From Victivallis vadensis (GTDB taxonomy: Bacteria > Verrucomicrobiota > Lentisphaeria > Victivallales > Victivallaceae), in the NCBI RefSeq assembly GCF_003096415.1, contig NZ_QEKH01000005.1, positions 1 through 64,000 on the forward strand: DNA of 64,000 nucleotides, read 5' to 3'. Position numbers and translations under genes: made by a program. Shown here piece after piece: positions 13,527-51,138 of the stretch (its first letter is position 1; every line of letters starts with the position of its first letter). The notes beneath the pieces are model-generated. The model searched no databases, was not told where the DNA came from, and saw only the letters and a list, made by a program, of their open reading frames with translations.

Positions 13527-14699
13527 TTACTTCACGTTGACCGCCCGCAGCAGCGAGCCGTTGTTCACGAAGGTCTGGCCGGTCACCACGAAACGCTCCT
13601 TCAGCAGCTCGGCGGCATTCACCACTTCGCAGTATTTGCCGTCCACGATGCCGCGCACCACGTCGAAGCTCTTCGCGCGGTTGTCCTTGCCGGCCGCGTA
13701 GACGATGTACCGGTCGTTCGCCCGGAGCAAAAGCGCATCGGCCGGCAGCCCGTAGGCCTCTTTCTCCTCAAGAATCAGATTCAGGTCGCACAAGGTGCCG
13801 CTGACCAGCGAGATATCCGGCGGGACCAGCACCTTGAGCTTGAACGTGCGGCTTTCCGGATCGATGCTCGGCGCCTTGTAAGTCACCACCCCCTGCCCTT
13901 TTTCCACGCCGTCGAGCGCGAACCGCACCGGCGTCTTCCCGGCGGCGACCTGATCGTAATAGACGGAACTGATATAGCAGATCACCTCAAGCTGTTTCTG
14001 GTTTTCCAGCTTCAGGATCTGCTGCCCCGCAGTCACATACTCGTTTTCCTCGACGTACTTGTCGGCGACGACACAGTCGAAGGGGGCGTGCAGCACGGAG
14101 TCATCCAGATTTTTCCGCGCGATGGTCAGGTTGCCCTGCGCCTGTTTGAGCTGGGCTTCGGCGTTGATCACGGCGGCCTTGGCGCTCTTCACATCCATCT
14201 CAGCCTTTTTATAGGTGGTTTCGTAGGTTTCGAATTCGGTCTGGCTGGTCGCCTTGGACTGCCACAGCGTCAGGAAACGTTCGTAGTCCAGAATCGCCTT
14301 GCGTTCGGAAATCTCGGCGCTCTCCAGCATGAACCTGGCGCTCTCCAGCTCCGCCTGCTTGACCTTGATCTCATCCTCGCGGACCGTCACCTGATTCTTC
14401 AGGATCTGCCGGTCGATGCCGAACAGCACATCCCCTTTTTTCCGGCTGTCGCCCTCATCCACTTTCAGCAGCTCCAGCGTGCCGCTGATTTTGGCGGAAA
14501 TCGTCGCATATTCGACCGGCCAGACGGTGCCCTGCACCGGAATCTGCCGCCGGAAAACGCGCTTCTGCAATGGTTCGAGCGTCACGCGCACCTCGCGCTC
14601 CGCGACCGCTTTGGATTTTTTTTCAGTACAGCCGCCGGCGAAGCCCAATACGACTCCTGCCAGTACCGTACAGGCCAGTGAATCGAAAAATCTGTTCAT
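13527..14699 (-). CDS. RND efflux adaptor, lipoprotein
   Basis: A 390-residue membrane-fusion protein. The start was moved to MNRFFDSLACTVLAGVVLGF (14699), behind a GGGGGG run, because it gives a clear lipoprotein signal ending in FAGGC with the lipobox Cys at about 24. Lipoyl halves flank a coiled-coil hairpin of moderate length (about 95-180), followed by a beta-barrel. It is the first gene of a two-gene operon with the pump. No outer-membrane factor follows, so the pair must borrow a TolC-like channel encoded elsewhere. Confidence 0.87.
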   Translation of the reverse strand: MNRFFDSLACTVLAGVVLGFAGGCTEKKSKAVAEREVRVTLEPLQKRVFRRQIPVQGTVWPVEYATISAKISGTLELLKVDEGDSRKKGDVLFGIDRQILKNQVTVREDEIKVKQAELESARFMLESAEISERKAILDYERFLTLWQSKATSQTEFETYETTYKKAEMDVKSAKAAVINAEAQLKQAQGNLTIARKNLDDSVLHAPFDCVVADKYVEENEYVTAGQQILKLENQKQLEVICYISSVYYDQVAAGKTPVRFALDGVEKGQGVVTYKAPSIDPESRTFKLKVLVPPDISLVSGTLCDLNLILEEKEAYGLPADALLLRANDRYIVYAAGKDNRAKSFDVVRGIVDGKYCEVVNAAELLKERFVVTGQTFVNNGSLLRAVNVK

Positions 14700-14816
14700 G
14701 TGTCCCCCCGTTATTCTGGTTTTCAAATCTGTCCGCAGATAAGGTAACACGGGGGAAACGGGTTGCAACAGCCTTGACCGAATTCTGACAAAATACTGAT
14801 TTCAGCGCGACAAACC

Positions 14817-15070
14817 GGGATTTCGCCTTTGGCGACCAAGGCGCTTCGCCCCTGCACCCCGACCGGCAAGGTGCCGGCGCCGGGTACGAGATCCGGGAAA
14901 GGCGTTTCGCCTTTCCCTCCGGGAGGGGGGAGCCCTGATGGAGACAGGCATGGTTGTACAGGAGCGGCACACCGCTCCGGTCGGCGCAAAGCCTGCTTTT
15001 TTGCAGGCTTTAGGCACTCCCTGCGCCTGCTGCCGCCGGAGGTCACGCTCGGAACTTCCAGATGCTGACC
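14817..15070. repeat. Left arm of a 254-bp imperfect inverted repeat
   Basis: This arm is the inverse complement of 15261-15515, with about 85% identity by eye and a 190-base spacer between them. It is built of small hairpins: CCGGCAAGGTGCCGG at 14863-14877, a GGGAAAGGCG/CGCCTTTCCC stem, and AAAGCCTGC-TTTTTT-GCAGGCTTT at 14988-15011. Stem differences between the arms are mostly paired: AGGCG becomes AACCG with CGCCT becoming CGGTT, and AAGCC becomes GAGCC with its partner. No coding sequence is supported here; this is the 1-kb gap between the adaptor gene and thiG. Confidence 0.85.
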
Positions 15071-15260
15071 GGGTAATAGAAAGATACCCTGATGGAGGCT
15101 GATAAGAGTTTGTCTGCCGATATACGCAAAGCGAGGTCAGGCAACAATGCAATTGTCATATCACAGGCAAGCATATCTTTGAGTACGAGCCTTACTGGAT
15201 CTTACCTGTAGGAAAAGATAAGTAGAGTTCAGCCTCCATGAGAGTAATTTCACATCAGAT

Positions 15261-15515
15261 GGTCAGCATCTGGAAGTTCCGAGCGTGACCTCCGGCGGCA
15301 GCAGGCGCAGGGAGTGCCTGGAGCCTGCAAAAAAGCAGGCTCTGTGCCGACCGGAGCGGTGTGCCGCTCAGGTACCCGCTTGCCTGTCCACAGTAGAGTC
15401 TCCCCCACCCGGAGGGAAAACCGGAACGGTTTTCCCGGCTCTAAGTACCCGGCGCCGGCACCTTGCCGGTCGGGGTGCAGGGGCGAAGCGCCCTGCTCGC
15501 CAAAGGCGAAATCCC
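15261..15515. repeat. Right arm of the 254-bp imperfect inverted repeat
   Basis: Inverse copy of 14817-15070. It includes the palindrome CCGGCACCTTGCCGG (15455-15469) and GAGCCTGC-AAAAAA-GCAGGCTC (15321-15342). The spacer 15071-15260 is AT-richer, differs in composition from both arms, and holds no recognisable gene. The segment 15516-15742 after the arm holds a likely -10 box, TATATT (15655-15660), for the thiG operon. Confidence 0.85.
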
Positions 15516-15742
15516 ACTTCAGGAAACTTGCACACGGCATTCATTGAATTGAGAAACTGAACCTTCAACGGATCACAGACTCCTGAAACATGCCGGCACC
15601 GGACGGGTTTCCGTGAAACTCCGGGGCGCAACTTTCTTTTTCGGGAAAACGTGCTATATTACATTCAATTTATCTATCACCTGTTTTGTTCCGGCCGGTT
15701 CGGCGCGGAATTCATCTCTTGAGGAAAGGATCGATTATCACT

Positions 15743-16516
15743 ATGAAACCGCTGATCATCGCCGGCAGGGAATTCACCTCCCGGCTGTTCCTCGGCACCG
15801 GCAAATTCTCCTCCAACGCGGAGCTTTCCGCCGCGATTCAGGCTTCCGGCACCGAACTTGTCACCGTCGCGCTCCGCCGGGTCGAAATCGGCAAAGAGGG
15901 GCAGGACGAGGATATTCTCGCCGCCGTTCCCGCCGGCGTCAAGGTGATGCTGAACACCTCCGGCGCGCGCACCGCCGAGGACGCGGTCCGCATCGGCAAG
16001 ATCGCCCGCGCCGCCGGATACGACTGGATCAAGCTCGAAATCCACCCCGATCCGAACTACCTGCTGCCCGATCCCGTCGAAACCTACAAGGCGGCGGTCG
16101 AACTGGTCGCGATGGGCTTTACCGTACTGCCCTACATCAACGCCGACCCGGTGCTTGCGAAGCGGCTGGAAGAGGCGGGCGTCGCGGCGGTGATGCCGCT
16201 CGGCTCCCCGATCGGCAGCAACCGCGGCATCGAAACCGAGGCGATGCTGCGCATCATCATCGAACAATCCAATCTGCCGGTCGTGGTCGACGCCGGGCTC
16301 GGCCTGCCCTCCCACGCCGGACACGCGATCGAACTCGGCGCCTCCGCCGTGCTGGTCAACAGCGCGGTCGCGGCAGCGGGCGATCCGGCGGCGATGGCCG
16401 GAGCCTTCGCGGCGGCGGTCAAGGCTTCCGAAGCCGCCCTGACGGCCCGGCCGGCCGCGGTGCTCGACCGCGCTTGCGCCACCAGCCCGATGGACAGCTT
16501 CAACGCGGTGGTGTAA
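15743..16516 (+). CDS. thiG: Thiazole synthase ThiG
   Basis: ThiG condenses deoxyxylulose 5-phosphate, dehydroglycine and ThiS thiocarboxylate into the thiazole phosphate of thiamin. The 257-residue protein starts at [13 protein letters not shown] (15743), 12 bases after a GAGGAAAGGA ribosome-binding site. It shows [12 protein letters not shown], the Schiff-base Lys region [17 protein letters not shown] and [13 protein letters not shown]. It is the first gene of a tight operon with thiH, a cysteine desulfurase and nadA. A -10-like TATATT lies at 15655-15660. No thiS or thiF is visible nearby. Confidence 0.95.
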
Positions 16517-18722: not shown

Positions 18723-19608
18723 AATCAAACGCCTCAAGGAGGAGCGCCATGCGGTGATCCTCGCCCACAACTATGTCCGGCCCGAAGTACAGGATATCGC
18801 CGACTTCACCGGAGACTCCCTCGAACTGAGCATCAAGGCGAAAGCCGTGAACGCTGAAGTGATCGTCTTCTGCGGCGTGCGTTTCATGGCCGAAACCGCC
18901 AAGCTGCTGTCGCCGCAGTCGATGGTGCTGCTGCCCAATTCCGACGCGGGCTGCCCAATGGCGGACATGGCCGATCCCGAACCGGTCGCCAACTACCGCA
19001 AGGCTCATCCCGACGCGATCTTCGTCGCCTACGTGAACAGCACCGCCGCCGTCAAGGCGCAGGTCGACATCTGCTGCACCTCCGGCAATGCGGAAAAGAT
19101 CATTCAATCCCTGCCGAAAGACCGCGAGATTCTGTTCCTGCCCGACCGCAACCTCGGCGGCAACATCTCCGGCAAACTCGGCGTCGATATGGACCTGTGG
19201 CCCGGCTTCTGCCCGACCCACAACCGCGTCACCGTCGAAATGATCGAAAAGGCCCGCGCCGCCGCCCCGGACGCGCTGGTGCTGGTCCACCCCGAATGCA
19301 CCCCGGAAGTCGTCGCCGCCGCCGATCAGGCCCTCAGCACCGGCGGCATCCTCAAATTCGTGCGCGAATCCAACGCGAAGCGGTTCATCATCGGCACCGA
19401 GGCGGGAATCCTGCACCGGCTCCGCAACGAAAATCCGGGCAAGGAGTTTCTGCCGCTTCAGCCTGAAATGATCTGCCCGAATATGAAGAAGATCACTCTT
19501 GAAGACGTCGCCCGTTCGCTGCGCGATCTCACCGAACAGATCGAAATCGCCCCTGAACTGCGCGAAGCCGCCGTCCGCCCGATTCTCCGGATGCTCGAAG
19601 TCAAGTAA
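18703..19608 (+). CDS. nadA: Quinolinate synthase NadA
   Basis: A 301-residue [4Fe-4S] enzyme joining iminoaspartate and dihydroxyacetone phosphate in NAD synthesis. The motif AHNYVRPEVQDIADFTGDS begins at about residue 24. The three cluster Cys are in CGVRFMAETAK (about 80), in the mid region, and in MICPNMKK (about 264). HPECTPEV is also typical. It starts inside the end of the desulfurase gene, behind AAAGGAGTGG. No nadB or nadC is adjacent, so the aspartate-to-iminoaspartate step must be encoded elsewhere. Confidence 0.95.
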   Translation: MSTLTDEIKRLKEERHAVILAHNYVRPEVQDIADFTGDSLELSIKAKAVNAEVIVFCGVRFMAETAKLLSPQSMVLLPNSDAGCPMADMADPEPVANYRKAHPDAIFVAYVNSTAAVKAQVDICCTSGNAEKIIQSLPKDREILFLPDRNLGGNISGKLGVDMDLWPGFCPTHNRVTVEMIEKARAAAPDALVLVHPECTPEVVAAADQALSTGGILKFVRESNAKRFIIGTEAGILHRLRNENPGKEFLPLQPEMICPNMKKITLEDVARSLRDLTEQIEIAPELREAAVRPILRMLEVK

Positions 19609-19616
19609 TTCCCGGC

Positions 19617-19980
19617 GATGCCTCCGGCGGCCGGGGGCGCTTCGCCCCCCGGTCGGGGTCAAGGGACGAAGTGCCCTTGCCACCGGAGGTAATTTGTGCG
19701 CGCAGCGCCCAGCTACCGGAGCCTGATTGAAAATCAGGCCGCGTAGCGCACAAGGTCTGCCGCCCGACAGGGCGGGCAGACCCGCCTGCCGCGAATGCGG
19801 CATGGCTTCCCCGGGACTTTGCCCCGGGGTAATAGATTGGCTCTATGGGCAGTACTCCGCACCGGCACGTTGCCGGTCGGGATCAAGGGATGAAGTGCCC
19901 TTGCCGCCGGAGGTAATTTGTGCGCATAGCGCACAAGGCCCGCCGCTTTCGCGGCAGGCTTTCCCCCGCGATCTGCCTCC
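19617..19980. repeat. Mosaic of GC-rich palindromic modules (R2)
   Basis: This fills the convergent gap between nadA and the DUF4139-like gene. It holds many small hairpins: GCCTGATT-GAA-AATCAGGC, a GTCTGCC/GGCAGAC stem around 19755-19780, CCCCGGG/CCCGGGG-type stems, and CCGGCACGTTGCCGG at 19862-19876. The block at about 19698-19790 is nearly identical to 29026-29117. The phrase ATAGAGCCAAT, read on the minus strand around 19831-19848, also occurs near 22502 and 34183. No coding sequence is supported. Confidence 0.8.
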
Positions 19981-19982
19981 GG

Positions 19983-21596
19983 TTACAGACGCACCAGCAC
20001 TGAATACTTGTAGTTGAGCTTCAGTTCTTCGCCGGGCTTGAGTTCGACTTCCCATTCAAGGCGGTTGCGCTGGTTCACCGAATAGATGCCGCGTTCGGGC
20101 ATGCTGCGTTTCGGGTTGCCGTCGGCTGAAATCAGTTCGCCGGAGAATTCGAGGTTGACCAGCACCCTGGCGTTGCTCTGGCGGTAATTCTTCAGCGTGA
20201 GTTCGCCGATCACTTCGGGCTTGCGGTAGGTGTATCCGGCAAGAACGATCCGTTCTTCGTTGATCCGCTTCAGGCTCGAATCCGCTTTCGGAACTCCGGC
20301 GGCTTCATATTCGACCGCCTTGCCGACGACGGTCAATGCTTTGGTGATCTTCACGACCGTGCTTTCGCCGGGGTTGACCCAGCCGGTTTCGGACTGGCCG
20401 AGCACCTTGTCGCCGTCCACGATTTCAACCGGGCTGGAGGTGATCGCGCGCTCGAAGGGGTTCTTGAAACGGACCGCATCCCACAGTTCGCCGGAAGCGG
20501 TCTGGCTGTCGCGGTTCAGCGGGCGGCCGTATTCGTTGCGGTTGTCGGGGATGTTCCACTCGACCAGCCGCTCGTAGGAGGCTTCGGCGGAAGCCAGCGG
20601 CAGATAGAGCGCGTCGCCCGCCGCCAGCGTGACCTTGCCCGCCGGAGTGATCTGGATGTCCTCGGTGGCGCCGGATTCCGGCAACGGAGAAAGCCCTTTG
20701 CTTTTGGCCGAAACAGGCAAAGCTTCATACACCCGCGCCTGATTCATCATCATGGAACTGTCACGAGCGTATCCCATACCGCCGGAAAGCTGGCTGAAGA
20801 AGGTGTTCAGGTCGAATTTGGTCGACATCGGGCTGGTCACATCGGCGCAGCGGATGTTCGGGAAACCGGAAACCAGATTCACATTCACATCCTTGAGGTC
20901 GGCCAGCTCGTTGCTGATCACGGCGGACTGGTCGATTTGGAGCTTCGCCTCCGGCCCCAGCGCAAGCCGGTAGGAAGGCGCCCAGGTGACGCCGCGCGTC
21001 AGGTAGTTGATGTACATCGGCCCCGCCATCTTGATCCGGGAATTGAAGAGCCATACCGGACGTTCGACTTCGAGGGTTTCGCGGATCGAAGCCGCCTGAA
21101 TGGAGGCGATCCGGCCGGTCTGGAAGGTCACGAGTTCGCCGGAATTCAGCTTCAGCGTCAGGAAAGGCTGCACGTAAATCTGTTCCTGCCGGTTCCCGAA
21201 CCGCTTCGGCGGCCGGGCCTTGACCGGATTCACCACAGTTCCGGTCAGCGTCTGGGCGGGCTGATTGCCGTAACTCTGAAGTTCGACGGTCACGCGGCAG
21301 TTCTCGTAGGTCGCGGTGAAGTTGTTGAACGGTTGATAGTTCGGCGTGGAAAGCCTGCGGTTGACCCGCGCCACGGTCAGGCCGTCGGCAGGACTGAACC
21401 ACAGCGTTCCGTGCAGCGGCTCGATCTCCTCGTCGACGAGGAACGGGCCGGGGCCGGGCTTCGCGACGCGCTCGACCACGGCAAGGCCGTTCTTGAAAAG
21501 CGTAAGTCCGGTGATCGGCGCCGGAACGATCGGTTCGACCGCCGCCGCCAGCGCCGTGACGCCGCAGCAAAGAAGTGACAGATAACTTTTATTCAT
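19983..21596 (-). CDS. Secreted DUF4139-like protein
   Basis: A 537-residue protein with an N-terminal signal peptide (YLSLLCCGVTALAAAVEPIV). The following part, ITGLTLFKNGLAVVERVAK, resembles the start of DUF4139/MuiA-type proteins. The central half has beta-rich sequence such as WAPSYRLALGPEAKLQIDQSA, and the C-terminal half has the DUF4139-style pattern (LEWEVELKPGEELKLNYKYS at the end). The function of the family is not settled; relatives are called mucoidy inhibitors and are exported. It starts alone and converges on the nadA operon across repeat R2. Confidence 0.65.
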   Translation of the reverse strand: MNKSYLSLLCCGVTALAAAVEPIVPAPITGLTLFKNGLAVVERVAKPGPGPFLVDEEIEPLHGTLWFSPADGLTVARVNRRLSTPNYQPFNNFTATYENCRVTVELQSYGNQPAQTLTGTVVNPVKARPPKRFGNRQEQIYVQPFLTLKLNSGELVTFQTGRIASIQAASIRETLEVERPVWLFNSRIKMAGPMYINYLTRGVTWAPSYRLALGPEAKLQIDQSAVISNELADLKDVNVNLVSGFPNIRCADVTSPMSTKFDLNTFFSQLSGGMGYARDSSMMMNQARVYEALPVSAKSKGLSPLPESGATEDIQITPAGKVTLAAGDALYLPLASAEASYERLVEWNIPDNRNEYGRPLNRDSQTASGELWDAVRFKNPFERAITSSPVEIVDGDKVLGQSETGWVNPGESTVVKITKALTVVGKAVEYEAAGVPKADSSLKRINEERIVLAGYTYRKPEVIGELTLKNYRQSNARVLVNLEFSGELISADGNPKRSMPERGIYSVNQRNRLEWEVELKPGEELKLNYKYSVLVRL

Positions 21597-27927: not shown

Positions 27928-28800
27928 ATGTCACTGGTTTCTCTAAAGGAAGTATTGCAGGATGCGCGGCGGGCGTGCTACGCCGTGCCGATGTTCGACG
28001 TCTCCAACGCCGCGATGATCCGCGCGGCGGTCGAAGTCGCCGAGGAGGAGAACTCCCCGGTGATCCTCGCCGCAATTGAACCCGACCTCGTCGGCTCGAT
28101 GATCGAATACTGGAGCGCCGCCGCCCGGCTCGCCGCATTCCGCTCCAGAGTTCCGGTCGCGATCATGCTCGATCATGCGGCCACGACCGGACTGTGCGTG
28201 CGCTGCGCCGACGCCGGCTTTTCCGGCGTGATGCTCGATGCCTCCAGCCGCCCCTTCGATGAAAACATCGCGGCGGTGCGGGAGGTTGCCGGGCTGATGC
28301 ACCGACGCGGCGTCAGCGTCGAAGCCGAACTCGGCCACGTCGGCGACGCGCAGGCCGTCGGCGGCGAAGGCGAACTCACCGGCAACGCCGGAGCGCACAA
28401 CGTCTACACCGATCCGGCCTCCGTCGCGGAATTCGTCGAACGCTCCGGCTGCGACGCGCTGGCCGTTTCCATCGGCACCGCCCACGGCGTCTACGTGACC
28501 GCCCCCAGACTCGAAATCGGCCTGCTCCGGGAAATCGACGCCGTTTCCCCTGTTCCGCTGGTTCTGCACGGCGGCTCCGGCACCCCGGAGGATCAGTTGC
28601 GCAACGCGATCGCCAACGGCATTGCGAAGATCAACATCTGTTCGGAGGTGATGCACGCCTGGCACAAAACCATGCTCGACGAACTGGCCGCCGCCCCGAA
28701 CCTCTCCTATTGGGACGTGACCGCCTGCGTGAAACCGGAAGCGGCGATCCGCGAAGTGATGCGCGCCAAAATCCGCCTGTTCGGCAGCAATCGCAAATAA
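27928..28800 (+). CDS. Class II fructose-bisphosphate/tagatose-type aldolase
   Basis: A 290-residue zinc aldolase. Metal and substrate sites are IMLDHAATTG (about 79-88), EAELGHVGDAQ (about 132-142), GTAHGVY (about 178-184), LHGGSGTPED (about 212-221) and INICSEVMHAW. It splits a ketose phosphate into dihydroxyacetone phosphate and an aldehyde. It lies 95 bases after the AraC gene, behind a TATATT -10 box at 27885-27890, and near the isomerase, kinase and alpha-mannosidase. A mannoside-to-triose-phosphate route is plausible. Confidence 0.9.
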   Translation: MSLVSLKEVLQDARRACYAVPMFDVSNAAMIRAAVEVAEEENSPVILAAIEPDLVGSMIEYWSAAARLAAFRSRVPVAIMLDHAATTGLCVRCADAGFSGVMLDASSRPFDENIAAVREVAGLMHRRGVSVEAELGHVGDAQAVGGEGELTGNAGAHNVYTDPASVAEFVERSGCDALAVSIGTAHGVYVTAPRLEIGLLREIDAVSPVPLVLHGGSGTPEDQLRNAIANGIAKINICSEVMHAWHKTMLDELAAAPNLSYWDVTACVKPEAAIREVMRAKIRLFGSNRK

Positions 28801-28804
28801 CAGG

Positions 28805-29145
28805 GGAGTGCCTCCGGCGGCCGGGGGCGCTTCGCCCCCCCCCCCGGTCCCCCCGACCGGCAAGGTGCCGGCGCCGGGTTCGGCTTTGAATTTTTACTGC
28901 GTAAAAATTACAAAACCGGGGGTATTAATAACGGGATGGGTCAGCTCTACCAGCGGTACTTGCCCCCGGGTGCTACCCGGTCGGGTTGCAAGGGCGAAGC
29001 GCCTTGCCCGTCGGAGACACTTGTGTGCGCAGCGCCCAGCTGCCGGAGCCTGATTGAAAATCAGGCCGCGTAGCGCACAAGGTCTGCTGCCCGGCAGAGC
29101 GGGCAGACCCGCCTGCCTTCAAAACGGCAGGCTTTCCCCGGCGTT
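28805..29145. repeat. Mosaic of GC-rich palindromic modules (R3)
   Basis: This is the gap between the aldolase and the mannosidase. It includes an 11-C run (28835-28845), CCGGCAAGGTGCCGG (28857-28871), a TTTTTACGCAGTAAAAA-like small palindrome, and a block (29026-29117) almost identical to 19698-19790. A hairpin GCCTGCC/GGCAGGC ends it. No coding sequence is supported. The mannosidase ribosome-binding site, AAGGAG, follows at about 29201. Confidence 0.8.
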
Positions 29146-42417: not shown

Positions 42418-43557
42418 ATGAAACGCTTCCGGCATCCGACTTCAGCCGCGCCGTCAGCAGACGCCGTCTGCCGCCTGAAACAGGCAATCGCAAATTTCAC
42501 CCTGATTGAGCTGCTCGTGAACACAACTTGTAAAATATACTATCTATCCCCATATGCCGCTCTGCGTAAAAGAGAGGGGTTCGGGGGAGAGAAAGCGGCG
42601 ATTTGCGCCGCGTCTCTCCCCGTACCAACCAATCTGAACATCTCTCTCATTCTTCGCAGGCTCTTACGCCTTGGCCAATGCTCTGCAAGCGGCAAGTCGG
42701 AGCAAAAACGTGAAGTTGTCTTTCCGCAAAAAAGCGGGAAGACAACTTCACGTTATTGCGGATCTTCCTTCCCCGCCGGCCGACCGCGCCACCGCCTGTC
42801 GACTGTCCCGTACCCGGCACCGGCACCTTGCCGGACGCAGGGGGCGCGGGGGGCGGCGGATACGCCCCCCGCATACCGCCATGTAAGGCCGTTTACCCTT
42901 ATTGAGCTGCTCGTAGTGATCGCAATCATCGCGATTCTGGCGGCGATGCTGCTGCCGGCGCTGAATCAGGCGCGGGAAAAGGCGCGCGGCATCAGCTGCC
43001 TGAATCAGATCGGCCAGTTGACGCGGGCGCATATCCTCTACTCCGACGCTTTCGACGGCTGGCTGGTGGTCAAGACCACCAATCCGCCCAACCGGCCGTG
43101 GGGACAGGTGCTGAAGGAGCAGGAGTTCACGACACAGAAGACGCTTTTCTGCCCTTCGCTCACGGCCCGGGGCGACTACTGGAACACCTACGGCATGTAC
43201 CGCGCCAACCTCGGCAACTATTCATTCTATGAAACGAATAAAGAGAGGTTCGGCAAATACCTGAAGGAGGTGCCCAATGACGGCATCTACTACGCGACGG
43301 CCCGGATGAAGAATCCCTCCGGCCTGATGCTGCTGACCGACACCCTTTACTGCGCCGGAAGCAACAAGGGCAAAGGGGATACCGTATTCGACCCGCACTC
43401 CATCAGCAGTTCCGAAAGCGTCGGCGTCGCCCTGCAGCACGGCAACCGGGCCTCCGGCGGTTTCGCCGACGGACACGCCGCCGCTCAGGGAAAAACCGAG
43501 TTGTGGGAATACGGCTTCAAGGCCCTTGTCATCAATTCCGCCTACGTCAAAAAATAA
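42418..43557 (+). CDS. Prepilin-like H-X9-DG protein carrying an in-frame 124-codon insert
   Basis: A 379-residue protein. Residues 27-34 read FTLIELLV, then 124 residues come from the repeat element (starting [11 protein letters not shown]). [20 protein letters not shown] then follows at 159-178, as in ordinary prepilins of this group. The mature part ends with the processing-associated motif [12 protein letters not shown] (H-X9-DG). The frame is open across the whole insert. If translated whole, the hydrophobic helix would lie 130 residues in, so prepilin peptidase recognition is uncertain. It lies between a sigma-70 promoter and a secreted GH39-like gene. Confidence 0.8.
42520..42891 (+). 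mobile_element. 372-bp palindromic element, copy 1, inside a prepilin gene
   Basis: The segment begins right after the codons for FTLIELLV (42496-42519) and ends right before a second set of codons for FTLIELLV (42892-42915). It is exactly 124 codons long. Copy 2 at 49981-50352 has the same length and is roughly 80-85% identical by eye; the final 90 bases are nearly identical. It contains a GAGAG..GCGGCG/CGCCGC..CTCTC stem, the A6-loop hairpin (42708-42753), CCGGCACCTTGCCGG (42820-42834), and GCGGGGGGCG/CGCCCCCCGC (42846-42872). It encodes no transposase. The mobile nature is inferred. Confidence 0.75.
42708..42753. repeat. Covarying hairpin with A6 loop, copy 1
   Basis: Two 20-base arms (42708-42727 and 42734-42753) pair around AAAAAA with one G-T pair. 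The inner part CTTTCCGC/GCGGGAAG is shared with 50169-50214 and, on the other strand, with 34240-34269. The outer part differs: GAAGTTGTC/GACAACTTC here against GAAATCATC/GATGATTTC in copy 2. Confidence 0.85.
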
Positions 43558-49903: not shown

Positions 49904-51138
49904 CCGAAAAATTCCCCCATTCCCCCGTAAGCGGCTCCCGCAGACTGACAAGCAATTTTACACTTATCGAGCTGCTCGTGAACACAACTTGTAAAATATA
50001 CAATCAGTCCACGACTGCCGCTCTGCGTAAAAGAGAGGGGCGCGGGGGAGAGAAAGCGGCGACCAGCGCCGCGTCTCTCCCCGTACCAAACGATCTCAAC
50101 CTCTCGCACACTCCCGGCAAGCTCTCACGCCTCCGCCAATGCTCTGCAAGCGGCAAGTCGGAGCAAAAACGTGAAATCATCTTTCCGCAAAAAAGCGGGA
50201 AGATGATTTCACGTTATTGCGAATCTTCTTCCCCCGCCGAGCAACCGCGGCCCCGCCTGTCGACCGTCCCGTACCCGGCACCGGCACCTTGCCGGACGCA
50301 GGGGGCGCGGGGGGCGGCGGATACGCCCCCCGCATACCGCCATGTAAGGCCGGCCATCGCAAAATTTACGCTGATTGAGCTGCTCGTGGTGATAGCGATC
50401 ATCGCGATACTGGCCGCGATGCTGCTCCCGGTCCTCCAGAAAGCCCGGAACCAGGCCCGGAGCATCCAATGCGTCAGCAACTTGAAACAGGTCTTTTCGG
50501 GACTTGCGTTCTATGCCGGGGACCACAAATATTATCCGGCGGCCAAACCTTCGCAGGAGGCGGGAGCGGCTTATCCGGGGGAATCCTTCGTCTGGACATT
50601 CCGCACGGCTCCCTATCTCGGGCAGCGCGGCGTTCCCCGGGCGCATGACGGAATCGACGTGTGGCAGGACGCCTCCGACATCCGCAACGCCGGTGTATTG
50701 AACTGTCCCGGTCTTGTGATCGGCAAGAAAGATATGTCCTGCTATGCGATGAACACCTTCGGCCGCTACAAGGAGGACTTCCGCATGACCGCCCTCGCCG
50801 CGCCACCGGAAGTCGACTTGAATTCTCCCGGCGGAAACAGCCTCTATGCCAAGCCGGACTCCCGCTGCACCAAAAGCTCCGGCGGGATCGCCCCGCCCTC
50901 CCCCTCGCGGATGCTCTTTGTTTCGGAGCTGGGCTACGGCGCGGAGATGGCCGCCAACGCGGGCATCCCGTGCAACATCCGGAACGGCACTTACTTGAAC
51001 AACGTCTACAACGGCCTGTTCCAGAACGGCTTTGAAGCCTCGTTCCGCCACAGCGCCAGAAAATCCGTCCTGTGGTTCGACGGCCACGTGTCGCAGGTCC
51101 GCTACAAGGAAGTCAACTGGAGCCTCGTCATCCCCTAA
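49897..51138 (+). CDS. Prepilin-like H-X9-DG protein carrying an in-frame insert (cassette 2)
   Basis: A 413-residue protein. Residues 21-28 read FTLIELLV, then 124 residues come from the element plus four more (AIAK), and [20 protein letters not shown] follows at 157-176. The mature part ends with [12 protein letters not shown] (H-X9-DG). The sequence before the first FTLIELLV differs from that in the 42.4-kb gene, so insertion or fusion happened in two different genes. The start overlaps the regulator stop, and the glycosidase gene follows 17 bases after the stop. Confidence 0.8.
49981..50352 (+). mobile_element. 372-bp palindromic element, copy 2, inside a prepilin gene
   Basis: Same length, same starting phrase (AACACAACTTGTAAAATATA) and same end (CCGCCATGTAAGGCCG) as copy 1 at 42520-42891. 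It holds the hairpin at 50169-50214, CCGGCACCTTGCCGG at 50281-50295 and the GCGGGGGGCG stem. After it come 12 bases (codons for AIAK) before the second FTLIELLV. Differences from copy 1 are concentrated in the first 200 bases. Confidence 0.75.
50169..50214. repeat. Covarying hairpin with A6 loop, copy 2
   Basis: Arms 50169-50188 and 50195-50214 pair around AAAAAA. Against copy 1, three base pairs of the outer stem are changed on both sides (G-C to A-T, T-A to C-G, G-C to A-T), which preserves the stem. Confidence 0.85.

Follow-up and report, generated by a model that had tools for sequence, protein, structure and literature searches.

Foldback elements have long inverted arms with internal repeats, arranged around a central loop. 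The replicative unit of REPINs consists of two inverted copies with a spacer between them; the two ends lie ~70–110 bp apart, compensatory changes in the hairpins are common, and the elements are dispersed in extragenic space (PMC3116915). REP sequences are 20–40 bp long and carry a GTAG or CGTC tag. Their head-to-head dimers often have conserved spacers, some dimers lie inside other palindromes, and in two species the majority of convergent copies are <20 bp away from each of the two 3' ends (PMC3733652). Here we describe a 700-bp inverted repeat at positions 14817–15515 of the window, the whole stretch of 64,000 nucleotides from Victivallis vadensis that we analysed. In a limited, open-access-only literature search, we found no description of such elements for this lineage.

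Architecture and copies of the element

We aligned the left arm (14817–15070, plus strand, 254 nt) with the inverse of the right arm (15261–15515, minus strand, 255 nt) and observed 88.6% identity over the full length, a match far beyond chance (E ~1e-90). Between the arms lies an asymmetric, non-coding spacer of 190 bp (15071–15260, plus strand) with a GC content of 43%, compared with 66% for the left arm and 67% for the right arm. The preliminary description had reported both this layout and a spacer much less GC-rich than the arms, and was correct on both points. The inverted symmetry reaches somewhat into the spacer, with 14889–15102 pairing with 15229–15442. At least six hairpins follow one another along each arm. 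Read on the plus strand from the outside to the inside of the left arm, these are H1 (14821–14835; right-arm counterpart at 15497–15511), H2 (14836–14855; 15477–15496), H3 (14863–14877; 15455–15469), which is the third hairpin of an order-wide H1-H2-H3 module, H4 (14895–14917; 15414–15436), H5 (14962–14977; 15354–15369) and H6 (14988–15011; 15321–15342), followed by a conserved inner block. The arms differ at H4, with AAAGGCG-TTT-CGCCTTT in the left arm and AAAACCG-GAA-CGGTTTT in the right arm, and at H6, with AAAGCCTGC-T6-GCAGGCTTT in the left arm and GAGCCTGC-A6-GCAGGCTC in the right arm. These differences are real and are matched inside the small stems, as had been noted, with the exception of the left-arm H2 (CCAAGGCG..CGCCCCTGC), which is imperfect at two mismatched pairs. 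The left-arm H2 is a chimera whose 5' half is one family allele and whose 3' half is the other; its right-arm counterpart is intact.

We next turned to the host genome (5.2 Mb, 87 contigs), where pattern and similarity searches, on which the copy count rests, identified 35 complete copies and 2 at contig edges, for a family of ~36. The NadA protein of the host (72% to the nearest record) places it near Victivallaceae/Lentisphaeria. One arm used as the query gave 42 matches, a number limited by scoring, and a search with a 19-mer conserved in the inner arm returned 71 good matches genome-wide, each corresponding to an arm core. The 71 arm cores stand in inverted pairs, the exceptions being the two contig edges and one copy with an altered partner core. 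Both arms and the conserved spacer are present in 35 of 35 complete copies. For 31 copies compared directly, the spacer is 85–97% identical to that of the window copy, with lower values for a few rearranged spacers; single spacers share 81–99% pairwise identity among copies. Length variants of the spacer also occur, including spacers of ~285 bp in some copies and two tandem spacers in L016. The mean identity among copies is 88% and none exceeds 96%, the value for the copy nearest to that of the window (L030), which gives no indication of recent movement.

Since the arms and the conserved spacer always occur together, the locus is one element and not two insertions, and these data show that the unit is arm-spacer-arm. 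The proposal that two separately inserted repeats flank original intergenic DNA is rejected, as no arm was found without its partner and spacer. The alternative proposal, that the spacer is cargo, fares no better: the spacer belongs to the element as a conserved, non-coding segment with no open frame, and a coding function is rejected in view of premature stops and of the observation that changes are fewest at codon position 3. A search for the spacer elsewhere, which had been suggested as a check, succeeded only within the host, where the spacer is present in the other copies; it is essentially absent among 119 other genomes of the order, which yielded one marginal 52-bp match. The family is species-specific, the full element being confined to one species among those searched. 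Searches of plasmids and phages for the element gave no match; an exact-pattern search of a genome-contig collection, which may lack the host's own record, gave none, and viral contigs gave five matches to a 19-mer.

Two copies, L035 in its right arm and L037 in its left arm, contain a nearly identical insert of roughly 115–140 bp that runs from the T6 loop of H6 and replaces the 3' half of this hairpin. An Rfam search of the insert gave no match.

Terminal repeats and genomic placement

The window copy is flanked, on its right side only, by a remnant of an IS982-like terminal inverted repeat (TIR) at 15523–15538 (GCCGTGTGCAAGTTTC, read on the minus strand). The sequence ACGCCGTGTGCAAGTTT is found as the terminal repeat of an IS982-like insertion sequence that is present in high copy and breaks the host assembly; many contig ends (L065–L083) are points at which this insertion sequence, with terminal repeat ACGCCGTGTGCAAGTTTT, causes the assembly to collapse. 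The element could be a MITE of this insertion sequence, transposed via the ACGCCGTGTGCAAGTTT terminal repeats, the hairpins being carried along. Consistent with this idea, the insertion sequence and several elements have the terminal repeat in common; it is found on both sides of five full-length copies (L010, L017, L019, L022 and L035, the last in diverged form), and perfect 6-bp target duplications are present at the full-length copy L019 and at the small TIR-bounded derivatives L088, L089 and L092 (74–113 bp). Contig ends also contain C-terminal fragments of the insertion sequence, whose match to the IS982 profile is weak and does not reach the curated cut-off (E=0.003 per fragment). However, 50 of the 64 element ends examined have no recognisable TIR (one of them, in L035, is a diverged TIR), and the TIR-less copies are precise-ended, with no target duplication. 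Moreover, six copies, including that of the window, have the TIR on one side only, which is consistent with flank exchange. We consider it unlikely that the family as a whole arose as such a MITE.

We also looked for other candidate mobilisers. A Y1/RAYT transposase (PF01797) was not found in the 99.5% complete host genome, and mobilisation by a RAYT is rejected on these grounds; the E. coli control and 34 of 61 genomes each gave matches above the cut-off with the same profile. The only PF00078 reverse transcriptase of the genome (L134 6368–7333, G000:C20; 321 aa) is retron-like by its VTG motif, as judged by eye. A retron link was rejected, as the region upstream of the reverse transcriptase does not match the element.

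Using gene calls from a simple codon-based gene finder, we observed 25 of 35 copies in gaps between convergent genes (22 of 31 in the first set and 3 of 4 found later), against a background in which convergent pairs make up 14.5% of all gene pairs and their gaps 17.7% of the intergenic length (464 kb of host genome; p ~4e-12). The distance of convergent copies to the stop codons is typically 4–50 nt, with a few up to ~105 nt. The window copy and L100 are the two copies in divergent gaps, and the window copy is thus atypical; its flanks, as read from translations, appear to be an RND adaptor gene and a thiG-like gene. At one locus, the upstream gene has orthologues in sister species (G002, G003 and G005) that lack the element and are followed by GC hairpins flanked by A/T. 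This locus, the one tested, did not provide an exact empty site, because synteny broke and the downstream genes differ.

A second possibility is that the copies form a family of structured non-coding RNAs or of bidirectional terminators that host selection would maintain, with its spread being incidental. Several lines of evidence point in this direction: placement by stop codons on both sides is strong, several ordinary convergent gaps of the host genome hold recognisable intrinsic hairpin terminators, and covariation of the local stems is seen both within the genome and between genera (described below). Nonetheless, we found no promoter-like or terminator-like site across 14500–15900, including no canonical intrinsic terminator with a GC stem followed by a U tract, and no Rfam covariance-model match for the element reached significance. 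In addition, the restriction of the full element to one species and the presence of two copies in divergent promoter regions argue against selection by the host for such a function, which we regard as improbable.

Local stem pairing and exchange of hairpin alleles

We compared base pairing in 60 alignable arms. Across 11 variable stem pairs (660 cells), 655 cells are Watson-Crick pairs, none is a G-T pair, and 5 are unpaired. Strong covariation is confined to local stems, as illustrated by one H6 base pair, for which 28 arms have G-C, 22 have T-A and 10 have C-G. In an alignment of 32 arms, 99.1% of cells are paired, with some G-U pairs tolerated at other stem positions. The same alignment contains 119 cells with a two-sided change, compared with 42.9 ± 6.7 in a shuffled control that does not preserve the relatedness of the arms, and 0–13 in slid structures, a control that flatters the structure because the structure was derived from the same sequences. 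In a cross-genus test of 24 sequences, we observed 45 two-sided changes, compared with 9.3 in shuffled and 1–8 in slid controls. Given the effect size and the cross-genus test, the conclusion on local stems is safe: two-sided changes keep the stems paired across the 60 arms, and the view that constraint acts on each small stem separately is strongly supported. The long arm-arm match within a copy is hardly preserved, as left and right arms of the same copy are 88.7% alike, versus 87.4% for arms of different copies (permutation p=0.012). A small number of old alleles, and not the strength of selection, may explain why no G-T pairs occur.

Each variable hairpin has two to four alleles, and the H4 loops occur in both orientations. 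Most pairs of hairpins within arms are without linkage at p<0.01, the clear exceptions being adjacent segments. When copies were oriented by their spacers, the outer hairpin alleles were approximately equal in frequency on both arms, whereas alleles of H6, the hairpin nearest the spacer, were arm-specific (16/5 versus 4/14; Fisher p=0.001), a pattern predicted by exchange that builds up with increasing distance from the asymmetric spacer. These data show that hairpin alleles reassort almost independently along and between arms, and suggest repeated recombination between copies in either relative orientation. A very improbable explanation is that hairpin-templated mutation (quasipalindrome correction) and gene conversion produced the paired changes with no selection for pairing: it would account for the lack of G-T intermediates at variable pairs and for discrete, shared alleles that are reassorted between copies, as well as for H4 loops in both orientations, but the stems stay paired across genera with different sequences, G-U pairs are tolerated elsewhere in the stems, and the process must act on local hairpins yet leave long arm-arm mismatches uncorrected.

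With a covariance model built from the 76 nucleotides at the outer end (H1-H2-H3), we detected this module in 20 of 61 genomes from the order, with tens of copies in some; the module shows covariation across genera. A genome from another genus of the family (G031) has two ~300-bp palindromes with such modules as arms, and these share a core that is, by eye, unrelated to the spacer of the window copy. We searched G028, G011, G051 and other genomes for an autonomous version with a gene between the same ends, and saw solo modules only. Other repeats in the window contain similar motifs. A compound palindrome at 19608–19982, which fills the gap between a convergent nadA-like gene and the gene at 19983–21596, belongs to a different family and has an H3-type motif in common with the 14817–15515 element. 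A hairpin-rich intergenic repeat at 28740–29120 has H2/H3-like motifs on both strands. Similar repeats at 42700–42960 and 50150–50420, each with a long AACGTGAA..TTCACGTT hairpin and an H3-like motif beside it, adjoin apparent prepilin-type N-termini, and solo copies resembling them are found at L252–L257. In a sister species, L135 (G005:C8:159500-162500) has H2/H3-like hairpins within long tandem repeats of ~540 bp in direct orientation.

Proposed origin and relation to known systems

We favour the reading, to which we assign a probability of about 0.6, that the copies constitute one non-autonomous, dispersed palindromic element, REPIN-like or foldback-like, that is of unusual size, shuffled by recombination, and tolerated or used at the 3' ends of genes. 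On the mobiliser, on current mobility and on any effect on transcription, we infer the following. The outer three-hairpin module would be the part recognised by whatever spreads the family, and homologous recombination among the ~36 copies would shuffle hairpin alleles and sometimes swap flanks. Copies may persist mainly at gene 3' ends, where hairpins would be harmless; alternatively, they may replace an ordinary bidirectional terminator, blocking or stabilising both transcripts. A small subset of copies was probably moved by the IS982-like transposase after acquiring its terminal repeats.

More tentatively, the element may belong to an order-wide class of repeats with three-hairpin ends, lineage-specific cores, RAYT-free spread, and evolution by whole-hairpin exchange between copies; this is possible, although we would not rely on it. 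The ~70 arms in one genome constitute a natural experiment in hairpin exchange with pairing kept, and the cross-genus module offers a handle for a search for the mobiliser and for a test of a bidirectional role at gene ends.

Compared with IS982-derived MITEs, the family is alike in that a subset of copies has the terminal repeat of the resident IS982-like element, in some cases with 6-bp duplications; it differs in that most ends are without this repeat, and the bulk of copies have neither TIRs at both ends nor a target-site duplication. The layout of arms and loop is the same as that of foldback elements, with the difference that most copies have no autonomous partner or target duplication. 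The resemblance to REP dimers lies in the conserved spacer, in placement by both convergent 3' ends and in insertion within palindromes; unlike tagged REPs, the arms end in GGGATTTCGC, with no GTAG or CGTC tag in the aligned ends. An inverted palindromic pair around a spacer is found in 35/35 complete copies and an intergenic position next to 3' ends in the 25/35 that are convergent, but the defining REP tag is missing from the aligned ends and a cognate RAYT/Y1 transposase from the host genome, and we therefore call the element REPIN-like rather than filing it as a REPIN. In common with REPINs, it has an inverted pair around a spacer, compensatory changes and extragenic dispersal; in contrast to REPINs, it is 700 bp long, has six or more hairpins per arm, resides in a host without a RAYT, and has alleles that are shuffled hairpin by hairpin. 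On our reading, the REP/REPIN concept would extend to elements several times larger.
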